From positions 1 through 37,496 of the forward strand of contig DATAUW010000032.1 in the NCBI GenBank assembly GCA_036268055.1: a DNA stretch of 37,496 nucleotides, written 5' to 3'. The notes below the pieces were generated by a model. The model saw only the letters and a list, made by a program, of their open reading frames with translations. It was not told where the DNA came from and made no database searches. This document shows positions 16,959-37,476 of this stretch, one piece after another (the first letter of the stretch is position 1; the number at the start of each line of letters is the position of its first letter). A program made the position numbers and the translations under genes. The stretch is from Verrucomicrobiia bacterium (GTDB lineage: Bacteria; Verrucomicrobiota; Verrucomicrobiia; Limisphaerales; Pedosphaeraceae).

Positions 16959-18518
16959 TTACTTCGGCAGCGGGCGGTTCTTGTATTTTTCGTAGAGGCG
17001 GGTGTGGCGGGTTTCGAGGCTGATTTCCTGGCCGGCGATCCAGAGGTGTTTCACGTTGGCGCGGAGGTCGAGGATACTGCCGTCGCAGACGAACAGGGTG
17101 GCTTCCTTGCCGGGTTCGATCGAGCCGAGGCGGTCTGCGACGCGAAGGATTTGCGCGGGATAAAGGGTGAGACCTTTGAGCGCTTCGTCTTCGGGCAGAC
17201 CGAACGCGACGGCTTGCGCGGCCAAGTAGGGAAGATTTTTTGCCATCGGAGCATTGAAGCTGGCCGAGCCCATGCCGAACGCGACTTTCACGCCTGCGTG
17301 ATGCAGCACTTCCGCTGCTTTGAAATTCACATCGTAAGCATCCTGGTCGTGCGCCGGTTGATCGAAGACGCTTTCGAGAATCACCGGCACTTTTTGGGTG
17401 GCCAATTCGTCTCCGACGCGGCAGGCGTCCGCGCCGCCGACGATCACGATTTTATAATCGTTCGTCTTCGCCCAACGCAGCGCGGCCTTGATCTGGCGAA
17501 GGTCATCGGCGTGGACCATGATGGGAATTTGGCCGCGCACGACCGGCAGCATCGCTTCCCACGGCGGATTGACGCCCGGATCCGCGCCACCGGATTTGGC
17601 GAGGGCATCGCGACCGGCGGCATAAGCGCGGGCATTGAGAAAAAATTCGGCGAGCGATTTTAATTTCTCTTCGCGTTCATGCGCCTGATCGTCGAGGGAT
17701 TTGAATTTCTTTGGGTCCTTGAATTTTTCCTTGGGCGTGGTGTCGAGTCCCATACCTGGCCAATAAACATGCAACGCCACCGGTTGTTTGACTTCCATCT
17801 GCTCGATGGTCCAGCCGCTGAGTTGGAGCAAGCCGGACAAGCCCGCGACCACGCCGCCCTTGGGCGCGGGCTCGATGTGGGTGATGCCGTTGACGCGCGT
17901 GACGGGGATGATTTCCGAATCGGGATTCACCGCGATCCACGACTGGACGTCGGACGTGAATTCGCCGACCTCGGTGTTGTCTTGCGTCGCGCGAATGGCC
18001 TCGATCTCACTCAACCCGACGGCGCTGTTCAATGCGATCATGCCGGGATAAACATGCTGGCCATTCAAGTTGATAATCTTGTCGGCCTTCGGCGGTTGAT
18101 CGGTGGCGATTCCGACGGATTGAATTTTATCACCGGCTATCATGACCTGGCCGTTGGTGATGGTTTCACCGGAAATGGTGTGGATGATGCCGTTTTGCAG
18201 GAGGAGGGTTTCGGCAAAACCAATGGACACGAACAGAATATTTATGGAGAGGAAAAATAAAATGGCGAGACCGTGGAGGAAGAGCCGCTGACCGAATGGC
18301 GTCTGCGATTCGCCTCTGTGCGGACCGCGGGTCTGTGATCCGCAGCAATGCGCAAATAATATTGCCGCATTGGGCTGCGTCGAAAGTGGCACGCTTGACG
18401 TGTGTTGCTGCAGGTCATAGACCCGCGGTCCGGTCGGAAGGAAAGGCTTTGGTAAATTGTGCTGGCCTGCTGGCATCAGCTTCCCACTCACTGGATGAAA
18501 TGAAATTTCTTTATTCAT
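16959..18518 (-). CDS. Exported amidohydrolase-like protein without the metal-binding HxH motif
   Basis: About 519 residues if ATG 18518 is used, which overlaps the terminal stop of the upstream frame (ATGAATAA). An internal hydrophobic signal segment, LFLHGLAILFFLSINILFVS at about 79-98, ends in GFA before ETLLLQNG, where the mature protein begins. The fold is the COG1228 imidazolonepropionase-like group: NGIIHTISG near the start, LYPAQILRVADRLGSIEPGK and a closing ATLFVCDG strand. The canonical PGxIDxHxH is replaced by VYPGMIALNSAVG, so the HxH metal pair is absent, and activity is doubtful. Residues about 29-66 are translated from a dispersed repeat, and no ATG, GTG or TTG start lies between the repeat and the signal segment. 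The true start is therefore uncertain. Confidence 0.75.
   Translation of the reverse strand: MNKEISFHPVSGKLMPAGQHNLPKPFLPTGPRVYDLQQHTSSVPLSTQPNAAILFAHCCGSQTRGPHRGESQTPFGQRLFLHGLAILFFLSINILFVSIGFAETLLLQNGIIHTISGETITNGQVMIAGDKIQSVGIATDQPPKADKIINLNGQHVYPGMIALNSAVGLSEIEAIRATQDNTEVGEFTSDVQSWIAVNPDSEIIPVTRVNGITHIEPAPKGGVVAGLSGLLQLSGWTIEQMEVKQPVALHVYWPGMGLDTTPKEKFKDPKKFKSLDDQAHEREEKLKSLAEFFLNARAYAAGRDALAKSGGADPGVNPPWEAMLPVVRGQIPIMVHADDLRQIKAALRWAKTNDYKIVIVGGADACRVGDELATQKVPVILESVFDQPAHDQDAYDVNFKAAEVLHHAGVKVAFGMGSASFNAPMAKNLPYLAAQAVAFGLPEDEALKGLTLYPAQILRVADRLGSIEPGKEATLFVCDGSILDLRANVKHLWIAGQEISLETRHTRLYEKYKNRPLPK
18321..18432. repeat. Inverted-repeat element inside the N-terminal coding region of an amidohydrolase
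   Basis: Arms 18321-18348 and 18405-18432, 28 bp each with three mismatches (core GACCGCGGGTCT). It is a different family from the 11955 and 16794 elements. It is 112 bp long and open in the reading frame of the minus-strand gene. No clear target-site duplication was seen. Confidence 0.8.
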
Positions 18519-18843
18519 CGTCTTCATCCAGGCAATGACGGTCGCGGCCGTCGTAGAGATGTTCCAGTGAGCGGCGGAAGAAAGAATTTTTGCCGGAAGC
18601 ATCTTCGGCTTCGCCATCGCCGGAATCGTCATCGGCAAGTTTCTTTGCCTTGGCGATCAGGGCGTCGCGTTCCTTGGCAAGCGCGGCGGCACGCGCGGGT
18701 GCGAGGGCGATGTCGAAATATTTTTTGCCTTCGATCCAGGTTTGCTGGCAAACCGTTGCCGAGTCCAGCGGCGTTTTTGACCAGATCACGAAATCACCAT
18801 CCTTGCCGGGCTCAAGCGAACCGACGCGATTATCTATGCGGAG
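18511..18843 (-). pseudogene. C-terminal remnant of the tandem amidohydrolase, downstream of an in-frame TAA
   Basis: These 110 codons continue in the same frame as the gene at 18844-21471, immediately after its TAA. They start LRIDNRVGSLEPGKDGDFVI, which is exactly the last conserved strand of an amidohydrolase domain, and end in an acidic/basic tail, EHLYDGRDRHCLDEDDE. The join NPAQ, stop, LRIDNRVGS suggests that one codon, such as CAA, became TAA. No independent start or ribosome site explains this stretch as a separate gene. Either the gene is a recent nonsense mutant, the stop is read through, or the base is a sequencing error. Confidence 0.8.
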
Positions 18844-21471
18844 TTATTGCGCCGGGTTGAGCGTGATGAATTTCAGCGCTTCGATTTCCGGTGTGCCGCC
18901 GAACTTCACGGCCTTGGCGGCTTCGAGATTAAGATGACGCGCGAGTTCGGAGGAGTCAGAATTAAACGAGACATTCACGCCGCGATCGTGCATGAGGCTG
19001 CCGTTGTAAGGGATGGCGTCATACACTTCAAACTTGTAAGCCCACCAATCGGAAAAAGTCGAACCGCCCGCGCCGTGTTTTGCGATTTCGTCGGCGACTT
19101 TATAGCCTTCGAGCACGTGTTGGAATGTCCCGATCTTCACGCCAAAACTTTCCATGAGCCGCATGAGCATGATGATCTCGTCCTGGCGATACGAATGGCA
19201 ATGGATGAGTCGCGTGCCCGAAATAATTTCACCGATGGCTTCCAGTTCGAGATCGCGGCGCGGCGGCACACCGCCGGTTTTTTTTAAATCCTCCCACGCC
19301 TTGAGATATTGTTGCGCAGCGGTGAAACGGTTCGCATAAAAAGTGCGCACGCCCATGCGCGTCTGCGGAAAACGCGTGACGTATTTTTCGCCCCAGTTGG
19401 ATTGTTTCACGTTTTCGCCGAGCGCGAATTTAATGCTACCAGGCGCGCCGGTGATTTTCAGTCCTTCGGGAGATTCGCCATCGCGCAACTTGATCGGGCA
19501 ATTTTGGCCGCCGATGGGATTGGCCGAACCGTGAAGCAAATGCGCGACAGTGACACCGCCGGCGAGTTGTTCATAAATATTTTCCGATTCGGAATTCACG
19601 ACGTCGCCGATGCGCACCATCGCGGACGAGGGCAGGGTGGCTTCGTTGACATCGCCGAGAATCATGCTGTGACTGTGGCAATCAATGATGCCGGGCGTGA
19701 TGCTCAGGCCGGTGCCGTCAATGACCAGCGTGTTCGAGCCGAGCTTGGCTTCAAAATTACCAACCATTTGAATCTTGCCATCGGAGACCAACAGTTGCGC
19801 ATTCGTCAATACGCCTTGGGGGCCACAAGTCCAAATGGTCGCATTGCGAATGAGCACGGCGGGGGGCGACGCGAGCACGCCGCGGCCTTCGAGCGGAGGG
19901 CGGGCGGCGCGTTTTTCCAATGCCTTGCGCTCGGCAAGTTTCGTTTCCTTTTCCGTTTTTTCATCGTCGTCGGACTTCGACGATTTCTTTTTTTCAGCAG
20001 CGATTTTTTTATCGTCCGCTTTCTCTTTCGATTTTTTGCCAGAGCCGTCTTTGCTTTTTTCTTTGTCCTTATCCTTATCGTCACTGGGTAGTGCGTAAAA
20101 ACGGCCGTCAATCCAGACCGATTGAATTTTGGCGTCGGTATCAAAATAATTCGTGCCGGAAACGATGGTGAGATTCGCGCGCTTGCCGGGCTCGATGGTG
20201 CCGAGAAGATTATCCACGCCGCAAAGTTTGGCGGGCACGGTGGTGAGGGCGGCGATGGCGTTGGATTCCGTCAGGCCGCGATCAATCGCCAGCAGCAAGT
20301 TTTTGTGGAAATCCTTTTTGTCGTCGAGGCCGAAGGTCGTGAGCGCGAGCGTGAGCCCCTGGTTTTGCAAAACAGCAGGATTTTCCGGCGCCCAATCCCA
20401 GGCGCGCAATTCATCGAGCGTGACCTGTTCCCAGTCATCATCATCCGGCAGTTTTTGGATCACCGGATAATTCAGTGGCACGATAAACGCCGCGCCGGTG
20501 GCTTTTGCGAGATCGGGACGACGCCATTCCTGCCCGCTGGAGACGAGATAAAAATTCAAATCGAGTTCGCGCGCGACTCGCGCGGCGCGGTCTTCCATCA
20601 AGGCGTCCTGCGGTTCGAACACCACGGGAATTTTTCTCTCAATGGTGGGCGCGAGCGCTTCGAGGCCGAGATTGTAGGCGGGGCGATCGCGTCCGGCGGG
20701 GTGTTTCAAATAATCCGCCTGATCGAGCGCGTAATGTTGCGCGTCGAAAAAAGTTTGGCGCACCACGGCGACCGTGCCCATCAGCGACGCGGGATAAACA
20801 TCACTCTTGGCATGTTGGGTATCGAACGCGACGTGTTGAAAAACGTCCGGCTTAATGATCGCGCGATTCGGTTCGACGTCGGACAATGCAACGAACGCGC
20901 TCGTGCCGCGAATGATTCCCTTGTCCGGCACGATGTTCGCGGAGGTGAAACCCAGCGCGCGCAAATCGGCGAGCGCCTTCGGGTCCGGCGAAAATGTCTG
21001 CGCGGCGCAGCGTTCGGGCGTGACCATCGCGACTTCGTAGCCGGGGCCGGTGATGGCGGTGGCATCGGTTTCCTGTTTGCTGACGCCGAAAAACTTGATG
21101 CCGCCGCCGGTTAATTCGAGTTCGTCCGATTTGGATTTATCATCGTCATCCTTTCCACCGAGCGTGAGGTACGGGTCAATGAACCCGGCGTAAATCGTCA
21201 GGCCTTTCAAGTCCCACACGCGCGCATCCGGCGGCACGGCGGCATTGGTCGCGACGGTTTGGATGAAGCCATCGCGGATGATGACGGTGGCGTTGGAAAT
21301 GGTTTCGCCGGGGCGGATGACGACTTGCGCGCCGACAAGCGCATGCACACGCGGAGGAATGGGCGCAAAGCCCGGCGGCAAAATTTCCGTAGTCGCCGCG
21401 CGCAGGGAGGCGGTCACGAGGAGAGACAGTCCGGCCAAAATGTAGCGCTGTAATTGGGCGAACCTGATCAT
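18844..21471 (-). CDS. Exported tandem-domain amidohydrolase, truncated by an in-frame stop
   Basis: 875 residues from ATG 21471, which starts the signal peptide MIRFAQLQRYILAGLSLLV; an ATG 24 codons upstream would bury it. Domain 1 (about 25-455) is amidohydrolase-like but has YAGFIDPYLTLGG where HxH is expected. A Lys/Asp/Glu-rich linker runs from about 459 to 524. Domain 2 (about 530 onward) has a proper DCHSHS (about 597), HCHSYR (about 756), QHVLEGYK and NSDSSE, so it should bind metal. The frame stops at TAA 18844-18846 after FITLNPAQ, before the final strand of domain 2, and continues open to 18511. Probable role: hydrolysis of a cyclic amide or peptide-like substrate in the periplasm. 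Confidence 0.85.
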   Translation of the reverse strand: MIRFAQLQRYILAGLSLLVTASLRAATTEILPPGFAPIPPRVHALVGAQVVIRPGETISNATVIIRDGFIQTVATNAAVPPDARVWDLKGLTIYAGFIDPYLTLGGKDDDDKSKSDELELTGGGIKFFGVSKQETDATAITGPGYEVAMVTPERCAAQTFSPDPKALADLRALGFTSANIVPDKGIIRGTSAFVALSDVEPNRAIIKPDVFQHVAFDTQHAKSDVYPASLMGTVAVVRQTFFDAQHYALDQADYLKHPAGRDRPAYNLGLEALAPTIERKIPVVFEPQDALMEDRAARVARELDLNFYLVSSGQEWRRPDLAKATGAAFIVPLNYPVIQKLPDDDDWEQVTLDELRAWDWAPENPAVLQNQGLTLALTTFGLDDKKDFHKNLLLAIDRGLTESNAIAALTTVPAKLCGVDNLLGTIEPGKRANLTIVSGTNYFDTDAKIQSVWIDGRFYALPSDDKDKDKEKSKDGSGKKSKEKADDKKIAAEKKKSSKSDDDEKTEKETKLAERKALEKRAARPPLEGRGVLASPPAVLIRNATIWTCGPQGVLTNAQLLVSDGKIQMVGNFEAKLGSNTLVIDGTGLSITPGIIDCHSHSMILGDVNEATLPSSAMVRIGDVVNSESENIYEQLAGGVTVAHLLHGSANPIGGQNCPIKLRDGESPEGLKITGAPGSIKFALGENVKQSNWGEKYVTRFPQTRMGVRTFYANRFTAAQQYLKAWEDLKKTGGVPPRRDLELEAIGEIISGTRLIHCHSYRQDEIIMLMRLMESFGVKIGTFQHVLEGYKVADEIAKHGAGGSTFSDWWAYKFEVYDAIPYNGSLMHDRGVNVSFNSDSSELARHLNLEAAKAVKFGGTPEIEALKFITLNPAQ

Positions 21472-21549
21472 CGGCGCGGCGAGTATGCCAAGGTTAAGGC
21501 TGGGTTCAAGACGGCTTTTGTGACGGAAAAATGACAAACGCATTAAATA

Positions 21550-21597: not shown

Positions 21598-24500
21598 ATG
21601 AAATATTTGTGTGTGGTGTTGTTCTTGGGGGCACAGCTTTTTGCGGCTCGGGCTTCGTCATTAATTACCACCAATTCTTTTTGGAAGTACTTTAAGGGGC
21701 ATTCCGAGGCGTCCACTCCCGATACGACCGCGTGGCGAAGCGCGAGCTTCAATGACAGCGCGTGGACGACCAGCCAGGCGCCGTTTTATTACGAGAACGA
21801 GCCCACAAGTTCCACGGCTTACTACGGCAACACCGACCTGACGGACATGGATAGCCATTACACCTGCATTTTCATGCGCCAGAAATTTGTCGTCAGCAAT
21901 CTCACGCAAATCCGCCAGCTAAAACTGAACGCGCTGAGTGATGACGGATTCATCGCGTGGGTCAACGGGACCGAAGTCGCCCGTTTCAACATGCCCAAGG
22001 GCAATGTGGCTTATAACGGCCTGGCTTCCCCCGCTTTGACGGAACCTGTCCCGCCGCAAAACGACGTGCTGACCAATTTTCAGCAATACTTGGTTACCGG
22101 GACTAATGTGATTGCCATCCAGGCTTTCAACTGCGCTCTCTCGACCAGCAGTGATTTTCTGATCCAGGCGGGGTTGAGCACGGTTACCGACGCGTCGTGG
22201 ACCAACATCGGCATCTCAGAGTTCATGGCGACGAATAAAAATACCGTGACGGACGAGGATGGCGACGCCTCACCGTGGATCGAGATTTTCAATCCCACGG
22301 CGAATCAAATCAGCATCAATGGCTGGTCACTCACGACCGATACCAATAATCCCCGCCAATGGGTTTTTCCAAACATAGCGATTAACAGCGGTGATTTCAT
22401 CGTGGTGTTCGCCTCGGGCAAGAACCGCACGTACAACCTGGCGGAATTGCATACGAATTTCCGTTTGCCACTTAGCAATGGTTATCTCGCGCTGGTGAAT
22501 AATCAAAACACCGTGATTTCCGCGTTCACGAATTATCCGGCGCAGACCGAGGATGTTTCTTACGGACGCGATTCAATTTCACCCAATCAGGTGGGTTATT
22601 TCGCAACGCCCACGCCCGATAATGCGAATACCCTGGGCGGTCCGGGCGCGGCGCCGGACGTGACCTTCTCGCGCGCGGGCGGGACATTCCTGAGCGCATT
22701 TAATCTGCAACTCACCACGGTATCCAACGCCGTCATTTATTACACGCTTGACGGCAGCGCGCCCAATGAAGATGCGTTGATTTACACGGCGCCAATCGCC
22801 ATCAGCGGTTCTACGCAGGTTCGCGCGCGCACCTTCCTGCCGGGCGTCCTGCCCGGCGCGGTGCAAAGCCAGACGTTTCTGTTGCTCGATTCGAGTTTGG
22901 TTCATACCAATTCCAACCTGCCCGCCGTCGTCCTCTACAATTTTGGCGCGGGTGCGGTTCCGGTGGATGATTATCAGTTCATGAATCTCGCCATTTATGA
23001 ACCGGTGAACGGCGTGGTGAATCTGACCAATGCACCGACACTGGATGTCCGTTCGGGGATTCATCTGCACGGCTCCAGCACATTGAATTTTCCGAAGAAT
23101 GCCTTCGCGGTGGATTTTTGGGATGACTTGAATGACGACAATAATCTTTCGCCCCTGGGATTGCCGGCGGAATCGGATTGGATTCTCTATGCACCGGATT
23201 ATTACGAACCGGTATTGATGCACAATCCGCTCATCTATCAGCTTAGCAATGACGCCGGCCGTTACGCGTCGCGCACGAAATTTGTCGAAGTCTATATCAA
23301 CACTTCCGGGGGCCCGCTCACCGCCGCCAATTATAACGGCATCTATGTGCTTGAGGAAAAAATCAAGTGGGGTGAAAACCGGGTCAATATCAAGAAAACC
23401 CGTTCGGTGGATGAACTGCACCCGCTGGACAACACCACCAACGTCAGCGGTGGTTACATGATGAAGATTGACCGACTTGGACCGGGCGAAACCGGATTTT
23501 TGGGTGCTGACCAGACGATTGTCTATAACTATCCGAACGAGGCAGACATCAAGACGCCCCAACGCGCACCGCAGGCGGAGTATTTGCAGACATTCATGAA
23601 TGGCTTCAGCAACGCGTTATTTGGCGTCAACTATACCGACCCCACGAACGGATACCGCGCGTATGTGGATACCGCCGCGTGGATTGATTCGCACATCCTC
23701 AACGTCGCCGCGTTCAACGTGGATGCCTTGCGGCTGAGCGGATATTTTTACAAGGATCGCGACGGGATTTTGCAATACGGTCCCATTTGGGATTTCGACC
23801 GTTCGCAAGGCTCGGCGGACGGGCGTGACTTCAACCCGCGCATCTGGCGCGCCGACACGCAAGACGAAGGCACAGACTTTTTCAACATTCTCTGGTGGGG
23901 CACGATGTTCACCGACATTGATTTCTGGCAGCAGTGGATTGATCGTTATCAGGAATTGCGGCAGGGCGCGCTTTCGACGAACCACATTTTTGCGACCATT
24001 GATATGTTCGCGAATCAAGTGGCGCAGCAAGAGCCGCGCGAGGCGGCGCGGTGGCCGGGCTTCACTTCGCCGCGCTCCGGGACGGCCACGACGGATAACT
24101 ACAGTTATACTTTTCCGGGCACGTACCAAGGCGAAGTAGTTTTTCTCAAAAAATGGTACAGCGACCGGTTGAATTTCATGGATACGAACTTCCTGGCGAA
24201 GCCCGTGTTCAGTAACAACACCGGCGCGTTTCTGACGAACGGCACGCTGGCCATCGCCGCGCCAAATCCCGGGACGATTTATTACACCACCGACGGCACC
24301 GACCCGCGCCTTTCGGGTGGCGGGATTTCCGCGAGCGCGAAGATTTACTCCGGAGCCATCGCCTTGACGCCCGGCGTCCTGATCACCGCGCGCGTTTACA
24401 ATCTGGCGCATCACAATCTCACCGGCGCAAATAATCCGCCGCTCAGCAGCCCGTGGTCGGGGCCGGCGGCTTCGAGCTTTGTACTGGCCGACGTGCCGGT

Positions 24501-25488
24501 TATTACTCAAAGCCCGGCGAACCTTGACGCCTACCTTGGTCAGTCGCCGGTGTTCACGGTGACCGCGACCGGTTCACCCGCGCCGAATTATCAATGGTAT
24601 TTTAATGGCGCGCCCATGGTTGGGCAGACGAATGCCCAACTGCCGCTTTCGCTGACCCAGTCGAATCAGGCGGGCGTTTATTCGGTGCTGGTGACCAATA
24701 TTGTCGGGACCAACAGCGCGTCCTTCGTGCTGAATATCACGCCGAAGCCGAACCTGGTGATCACCGAAGCGGAGTCAAGCGAAGCCAAGGGTCCGGACAA
24801 CATCACGAGCGACTGGTGGGAGTTGAGCAATCTCGGCAACTTTCCGGTGAATCTGCAAGGCTACCGTTTTGACGATGACCATGATTCGTTCAGCGACGCG
24901 TTCACCATCACGAATCCTGTGACCATCGCCCCCGGAGAATCCATTGTGCTGGTGGAGCAACTGACGCCGGAACAATTCCGAGCGTGGTGGGGCGAGACGA
25001 ATCTTCCGGCCAATCTGCAAATCATCACTTATCCGAGCATCGGGTTCAGTTCGGACGGTGATTCCATTTATCTTTGGAACGCGGCGGCGGCAACGGAAGC
25101 AGACGTGCTTACCAACGTCATTTTCGGCTCGGCGACGAAAGGAGTTTCGTTCGGCTATAATTTCGCGACGGGAGTTTTCGGCGCGTTGAGCGTGAAAGGG
25201 CAGGGCGGCGCATTTGCCTCGGTGATGAACAGTGACATTGGTTCGCCGGGCACGATCATCACGCCGCTGGACCAATCGCCCGGTGAGTACACAGAACCGA
25301 ATGGATTTGGTTTCAAGTTCAACACGCAATCAGGCTTGAATTATCGCGTGATGTACAAGGATTCCCTGGATTCCACCAACTGGGAAGTGCTGACAAACTT
25401 CAACGGCTCCGGGACGGCATACACGCTGAGCGACCTTTCAGCCGCCACGAATCATGCGCGATACTATCGCGTTGTCGTGGCGCCGTAA
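21598..25488 (+). CDS. Large secreted CotH-family protein with lamin-tail, chitobiase-like and Ig-like domains
   Basis: 1296 residues with a signal peptide (1-19, ending ARA). A beta-sandwich region (20-195) is followed by a lamin-tail domain (about 200-300; ISEFMATNKN, WIEIFNPT), a chitobiase-type C-terminal domain (355-430; IYYTLDGSAPN) and a CotH kinase-like domain (about 434-750). The last has YNGIYVLEEKIKWGENRVNIKK and GPIWDFDRSQGS with Asp732 and Asp734. A second chitobiase-like unit (878-940; IYYTTDGTDPR), an Ig-like domain (967-1048) and a second lamin-tail domain (1055-1190) follow. CotH proteins are secretory protein kinases in spores and cellulosomes, so phosphorylation of surface proteins or carbohydrate-related attachment is plausible. 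AGGAAG lies just before the ATG. It is divergent from the amidohydrolase. Confidence 0.88.
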   Translation: MKYLCVVLFLGAQLFAARASSLITTNSFWKYFKGHSEASTPDTTAWRSASFNDSAWTTSQAPFYYENEPTSSTAYYGNTDLTDMDSHYTCIFMRQKFVVSNLTQIRQLKLNALSDDGFIAWVNGTEVARFNMPKGNVAYNGLASPALTEPVPPQNDVLTNFQQYLVTGTNVIAIQAFNCALSTSSDFLIQAGLSTVTDASWTNIGISEFMATNKNTVTDEDGDASPWIEIFNPTANQISINGWSLTTDTNNPRQWVFPNIAINSGDFIVVFASGKNRTYNLAELHTNFRLPLSNGYLALVNNQNTVISAFTNYPAQTEDVSYGRDSISPNQVGYFATPTPDNANTLGGPGAAPDVTFSRAGGTFLSAFNLQLTTVSNAVIYYTLDGSAPNEDALIYTAPIAISGSTQVRARTFLPGVLPGAVQSQTFLLLDSSLVHTNSNLPAVVLYNFGAGAVPVDDYQFMNLAIYEPVNGVVNLTNAPTLDVRSGIHLHGSSTLNFPKNAFAVDFWDDLNDDNNLSPLGLPAESDWILYAPDYYEPVLMHNPLIYQLSNDAGRYASRTKFVEVYINTSGGPLTAANYNGIYVLEEKIKWGENRVNIKKTRSVDELHPLDNTTNVSGGYMMKIDRLGPGETGFLGADQTIVYNYPNEADIKTPQRAPQAEYLQTFMNGFSNALFGVNYTDPTNGYRAYVDTAAWIDSHILNVAAFNVDALRLSGYFYKDRDGILQYGPIWDFDRSQGSADGRDFNPRIWRADTQDEGTDFFNILWWGTMFTDIDFWQQWIDRYQELRQGALSTNHIFATIDMFANQVAQQEPREAARWPGFTSPRSGTATTDNYSYTFPGTYQGEVVFLKKWYSDRLNFMDTNFLAKPVFSNNTGAFLTNGTLAIAAPNPGTIYYTTDGTDPRLSGGGISASAKIYSGAIALTPGVLITARVYNLAHHNLTGANNPPLSSPWSGPAASSFVLADVPVITQSPANLDAYLGQSPVFTVTATGSPAPNYQWYFNGAPMVGQTNAQLPLSLTQSNQAGVYSVLVTNIVGTNSASFVLNITPKPNLVITEAESSEAKGPDNITSDWWELSNLGNFPVNLQGYRFDDDHDSFSDAFTITNPVTIAPGESIVLVEQLTPEQFRAWWGETNLPANLQIITYPSIGFSSDGDSIYLWNAAAATEADVLTNVIFGSATKGVSFGYNFATGVFGALSVKGQGGAFASVMNSDIGSPGTIITPLDQSPGEYTEPNGFGFKFNTQSGLNYRVMYKDSLDSTNWEVLTNFNGSGTAYTLSDLSAATNHARYYRVVVAP

Positions 25489-37340: not shown

Positions 37341-37476
37341 CTCTAACCTGGCAGGGCTGCGCTGCCGCGCAGCCGTCCGCAGTCCCGCAGGGACGGCAGA
37401 TCTTAGCCCAGCAATTCATTGCTGGGTTTACCTCCGCCACAAACCAAGTCCCTTCAGGGACGAAAGAAATCATAGA
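37341..37476. repeat. Hairpin-rich intergenic repeat
   Basis: A non-coding cluster of short palindromes: GGCTGCG/CGCAGCC (37355-37374), GTCCCGCAGGGAC (37382-37394), CCCAGCAAT/ATTGCTGGG (37407-37426) and GTCCC TTCA GGGAC (37448-37461). The dense, mutually similar palindromes look like a REP/MITE-type dispersed element, different from the other repeat families here. It ends near the window edge. Confidence 0.6.

Follow-up and report, generated by a model that had tools for sequence, protein, structure and literature searches.

The nearest solved structure to the interrupted half of the gene analysed here (gene 1) is that of a Thermotoga maritima amidohydrolase (3ooq), to which the second domain of the gene 1 protein (domain 2) can be aligned over residues 4-384 with an E value of 2.4e-48. 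It is also the best fold match to a model of domain 2, with TM scores of 0.75 by query and 0.88 by target (chain A). Unlike 3ooq, domain 2 forms part of a two-domain protein, as its second half, and the stop interrupts its reading frame with about 43 residues of the core shared by the two still to come. The fold match to 3ooq, an invariant His/Asp pattern and a PF01979 match that runs across the stop together point to membership of domain 2 in the amidohydrolase superfamily, with a putative metal site. Among profile models, the best partial matches are the NCBIfam models of Xaa-Pro dipeptidase (NF051886) and imidazolonepropionase (TIGR01224). With 85.5 and 75.8 bits, both remain far below the curated cut-offs of 500 and 298.15, so that no substrate can be assigned to the enzyme.

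In-frame stop codons have been surveyed in bacterial genes before. According to that survey (PMC7918605), they are widespread and mostly short-lived, having the age of polymorphisms, and a substantial fraction of the raw cases is expected to be artefacts. The nonsense alleles described there at TAG/CAG sites resemble gene 1 in that a Gln codon is converted to a stop by one transition in a frame that is otherwise open. However, the cases retained there are common to two or more species, whereas the stop in gene 1 is found in a single genome. The TAA described below has the appearance of an ordinary nonsense mutation of very recent origin, or of a sequencing error at a single base, rather than of a new decoding trick.

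Gene 1, its internal TAA and the same site in relatives

The window, i.e. the whole stretch of DNA analysed, is an entire contig (C32) of 37,496 bases from a draft genome with 41 contigs, 5.1 Mb in size and 96.2% complete. The product of gene 1, which lies on the minus strand, has two amidohydrolase-like halves after a signal-peptide-like start (Table 1). An 899-aa ORF (18844-21543) reads ...FITLNPAQ up to the TAA, and the same frame continues with LRIDNRVGSLEPGK..., then 110 open codons up to the next TAA. We chose ATG 21471 (MIRFAQLQRY), which precedes the signal-peptide-like stretch, as the likely start, and 875 codons separate it from the internal stop. The earlier note had described an in-frame TAA that splits a tandem amidohydrolase after NPAQ, with 110 further codons in the same frame and an intact gene of about 985 residues. 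This description was borne out in the minus-strand frame, in which 986 codon positions are counted from the likely start to the last stop and the 110 codons are homologous to the ends of orthologues. PF01979 was located by a Pfam search where the first half ends; the genome search found it in the second half too, but only across the stop (18724-18993, with one TAA inside). The TAA site corresponds to one aligned codon within a conserved helix. Since the 110 codons align in frame to seven other genomes of the same family, with the aligned part free of stops, the arrangement is more than chance.

Table 1. Positions in the window of gene 1, gene 2 and the features discussed in the text.
Feature	Positions	Strand	Remarks
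Gene 1, tandem amidohydrolase, complete reading frame including internal stop	18514..21471	-	986 codon positions from likely ATG
In-frame TAA	18844..18846	-	Gln at same site in 90 of 109 distinct loci
110 codons 3' of the stop	18514..18843	-	conserved, without second lesion; the domain 2 model has three strands and one helix here
TAA at the position where gene 1 of relatives ends	18511..18513	-	overlaps the start of gene 2
Domain 2 as modelled, likely catalytic half, cut by the stop	18514..19866	-	residues 560-1010 from ATG 21543
Imperfect palindrome, 112 nt, other copies in genome	18321..18432	.	in frame in gene 2 leader
Gene 2, second amidohydrolase	16959..18518	-	ATG 18518-18516 overlaps ancestral gene 1 stop by 8 nt

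The search for relatives of gene 1 covered 58 genomes, comprising the own genome, seven of the same family and fifty of the same order, with none of the same genus. Matches were obtained in 32 of them, the own genome included. Because the search query ended at the stop, the residue at the site was read in fetched loci instead. A locus was obtained for 29 of the 31 matching relatives, with glutamine at the site in 28 and leucine in one. A scan of named genome contigs yielded at least 581 relatives among at least 592 pattern matches, and the best 80 were kept. The 29 loci, the best 80 of at least 581 and the family loci gave 118 rows, in which our own place occurs twice and duplicates are present, and these were reduced to 109 distinct sequences.

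Alignment with orthologues had been proposed earlier as a check on the site, and glutamine is found to predominate, with 90 Gln, 14 Leu, 3 Met, 1 Ile and one stop, the last being this window. A sense codon is present in all of the 108 other distinct loci as well as in 7/7 other genomes of the same family. The 110 codons behind the TAA align in frame with the orthologue ends, and the aligned parts have no further lesion. Orthologues that end at NPAQ and are followed by a separate downstream gene, the arrangement that would speak for a natural gene end, account for 0 of the 108 other distinct loci. Two naturally separate genes meeting at the TAA were rejected on the same ground, as none of the relatives compared ends there.

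It should be mentioned that one TGA was seen in the first-half rows of each of two other genomes, G012 and G054. With open frames as long as 947 and 990 codons in these two genomes, we take this TGA to sit 5' of the real start. One TAA inside the G001 match of the family search lies outside the part aligned in the family comparison and is therefore probably the own end of that gene. In another locus (L038, genome G033), the orthologue halves are in different frames on a short contig, where a frameshift or an assembly break is possible. Four loci (L039, L042, L043 and L104) come from binned MAG contigs that encode the gene 1 protein and whose record titles name Klebsiella pneumoniae, Akkermansia muciniphila (two) and Chryseobacterium gleum; the first and last of these labels, at least, look doubtful.

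Decoding of the stop codon

A change of the genetic code was rejected from a comparison of domain matches in the own genome. An internal stop is present in none of the 217 matches of four other families (0/62 for PF00005, 0/142 for PF00072, for which 150 of 153 candidates were scored, 0/10 for PF00069 and 0/3 for PF00472), versus 1 of 11 matches of PF01979, the one being gene 1 itself.

A real TAA that is read through often enough to preserve the full-length enzyme would account for the codons behind it being still constrained, and absence of decay fits this reading. The survey cited above (PMC7918605) also argues that bacterial genes often tolerate in-frame stops. On the other side, none of the relatives compared has a stop at the site, and none of the 44 tRNA genes found in the draft genome reads UAA or any other stop codon, in a set that is incomplete, as Ala-TGC and Ile-GAT are not among the 44. 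The three PF00472 matches include two frames of release-factor size, 361 and 395 codons, and an RNA fold behind the stop that might promote readthrough is no better than in shuffled sequences (z 0.74). UAA is generally the least leaky stop codon, which we also count against readthrough. With these observations, readthrough that preserves the enzyme appears very unlikely, and its conserved or programmed form is not supported by the relatives compared, the 44 tRNAs of this draft genome or the 217 other domain matches. A literature search found no paper that joins a premature stop codon, a metagenome-assembled genome and readthrough. Less likely still is a genuine TAA that is partly suppressed, giving mostly the 875-residue form and a little full-length protein, with the readthrough ribosomes also driving gene 2, so that the output of the whole operon would be dimmed by the stop.

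Age and origin of the interruption

To date the stop, columns without variation among the seven other family members were examined for changes in this genome. Behind the stop, 0 of 48 such columns are changed. The same type of test gave no change for G004, G006 and G001, one for G003 and G002, and three for G007 and G005. In the part of domain 2 before the stop, 6 of 195 invariant columns are changed here (7 of 195 in a second alignment). The corresponding value for domain 1 is 24 of 196, exceeding those of all seven other family genomes, and that for gene 2 is 15 of 165, second only to G005. The looser domain 1 and gene 2 indicate that the column test is able to detect looseness in this lineage, although part of this looseness may come from a possibly longer branch of this genus. 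Zero changes at 48 codons would limit neutral drift since release from selection to less than about 0.028 substitutions per site at 95%, a rough value that assumes a ts/tv of 2. Pairwise dN/dS was left out of the dating because it is near saturation, with pS of 0.54-0.83 in all 20 comparisons. The lack of decay behind the TAA implies that the stop is very young, or not real, or without effect. An old decaying pseudogene was rejected, considering that none of the 48 conserved columns indicates relaxed constraint.

With moderate confidence, we propose that the TAA is a recent C-to-T nonsense allele (coding strand), which arose by a single-base change in one environmental bacterium. It may segregate as a polymorphism in the population instead of being a fixed loss. 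Against this proposal stands that only one genome has the stop, with no second genome of the species or genus found among those searched. The site is located mid-contig, is unique in the genome and lies outside any long homopolymer, by which a real change is mildly favoured. A collapsed repeat was rejected as the cause of the stop, as the genome has no near-identical second copy, the sole other match being weak and to gene 2.

The main rival is an error at one base of the assembly consensus, with the gene of the organism intact, which we regard as possible but less likely. It agrees with the lesion being an isolated one and confined to one draft genome, assembled in 41 contigs; the absence of decay is equally expected from an error, and both conserved parts of domain 2 look selected as they are in intact relatives. 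The location of the site, as described above, argues against an error, and so does the absence of internal stops from the other domain matches, which suggests that such base errors are infrequent in this genome. A genuine recent allele would leave the same trace as an erroneous base, namely one lesion with no decay behind it, and the two are not told apart by this pattern. Two of the options offered by the earlier note, a fresh nonsense mutation and a base error, thus both stand, while its third, stop-codon readthrough, received no positive support from the relatives, the tRNAs, the RNA fold or the other domain families.

A hexamer-score search for genes split in frame was carried out over 437 kb, consisting of a 400-kb sample and the window. 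An open continuation of at least 80 codons was found at 59 of 311 coding ORF ends. By eye, most of the 40 top-scoring rows resemble shadow frames or a following gene that has a start of its own. The gene 1 stop ranks 14th of these 40, so that the hexamer score alone does not single it out.

The finding matters little beyond annotation. It offers a clear instance of an apparent nonsense change caught before any decay. Gene 1 should be flagged as interrupted in annotation and not be used as evidence of an unusual code.

Predicted effects on domain 2 and on gene 2

Domain 2 was modelled with the stop as a residue, from an alignment of 51 sequences. The model has a mean pLDDT of 84 and a pTM of 0.83, with low confidence for the last approximately 40 residues. 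In the modelled domain, the stop takes the place of residue 341, which belongs to the helix 336-342, and it is followed by strands 359-362, 373-378 and 381-385 and by a long helix, 386-413. The invariant residues H64, H66, H222, H224, H250 and D304 of domain 2 all precede the stop, and from the His/Asp pattern of the amidohydrolase superfamily we take them to be candidate metal ligands. Ribosomes would stop after 875 residues. Domain 1 and the candidate ligands of domain 2 would still be present in the truncated protein, but the last barrel helix would lack its end, and the helical tail would be missing together with three strands from the accessory sheet. Considering that the cut spares the candidate ligands yet removes the closing strands of the accessory sheet, the model suggests that the truncated catalytic domain probably misfolds and that the enzyme is lost. 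No other match to the gene 1 protein at an E value of 1e-50 or better was found in the own genome, so that there is no close second copy to cover for gene 1.

It is also conceivable that the shorter protein is functional, or that the loss of the enzyme is favoured. The position of all candidate metal ligands before the stop would be compatible with such an adaptive truncation, as would domain 1 and gene 2 being already looser than average in this genome. The sense codon at the site in every other distinct locus stands against it, and the strands that would be lost are part of the core common to 3ooq. We consider an adaptive truncation highly improbable and return to the recent nonsense allele for its effect on the neighbouring gene.

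Gene 1 is the upstream member of a pair that most relatives in the wider set retain; within its own family, the two genes overlap. An ATG of gene 2 is located at -7 or -10 from the gene 1 end in 7/7 other family genomes, in some of them among further ATGs. Among the named loci, the best 80 of at least 581, a relative of gene 2 lies directly downstream in 71, and 9 have none in the available DNA, 2 of these with fewer than 600 bases left. A study of translational coupling (PMC10666635) examined six native gene pairs from two species; for most of them, coupling nearly disappears at distances of about 20 to 38 nt. With the TAA in place, translation of gene 1 would end 325 nt earlier. Since the gene 2 start overlaps the ancestral gene 1 stop, this would remove the translational coupling to gene 2, and from the present distance of 325 nt, compared to those in that study, a lower output of gene 2 is predicted, provided that gene 2 lacks a ribosome binding site of its own. 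A point against uncoupling is that the ATG overlaps or abuts the gene 1 stop in only 31 of the 71 tandem pairs within the best 80 of at least 581 loci. The position of gene 1 upstream in an overlapping pair makes the polar effect on gene 2 a testable prediction.

The palindrome in the gene 2 leader has 28-nt arms that are 89% complementary, and it lies 5' of the hydrophobic stretch of gene 2. A search of the own genome with it gave 86 match rows, many of which are the two strands of one place, and the other near-full-length copies are approximately 70-81% identical. The gene 1-gene 2 junction of the seven family relatives has at best a 17-nt arm (G004). The gene 2 leaders of three other loci (L041, L044 and L054) also read like translated repeats, e.g. 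HPTSNIQHPTSS in L041. Judging from these leader sequences, the gene 1-gene 2 junction may be a recurrent landing site of repeats.

Two further features of the window were noted. A divergent neighbour ORF of 1296 aa on the plus strand (21598-25488) has CotH kinase, lamin-tail, Fn3-associated and Ig-like domains. An Acido-Lenti-1 RNA (RF01687) is located on the minus strand at 37381-37426, with a score of 58.6 bits compared to a gathering score of 37.
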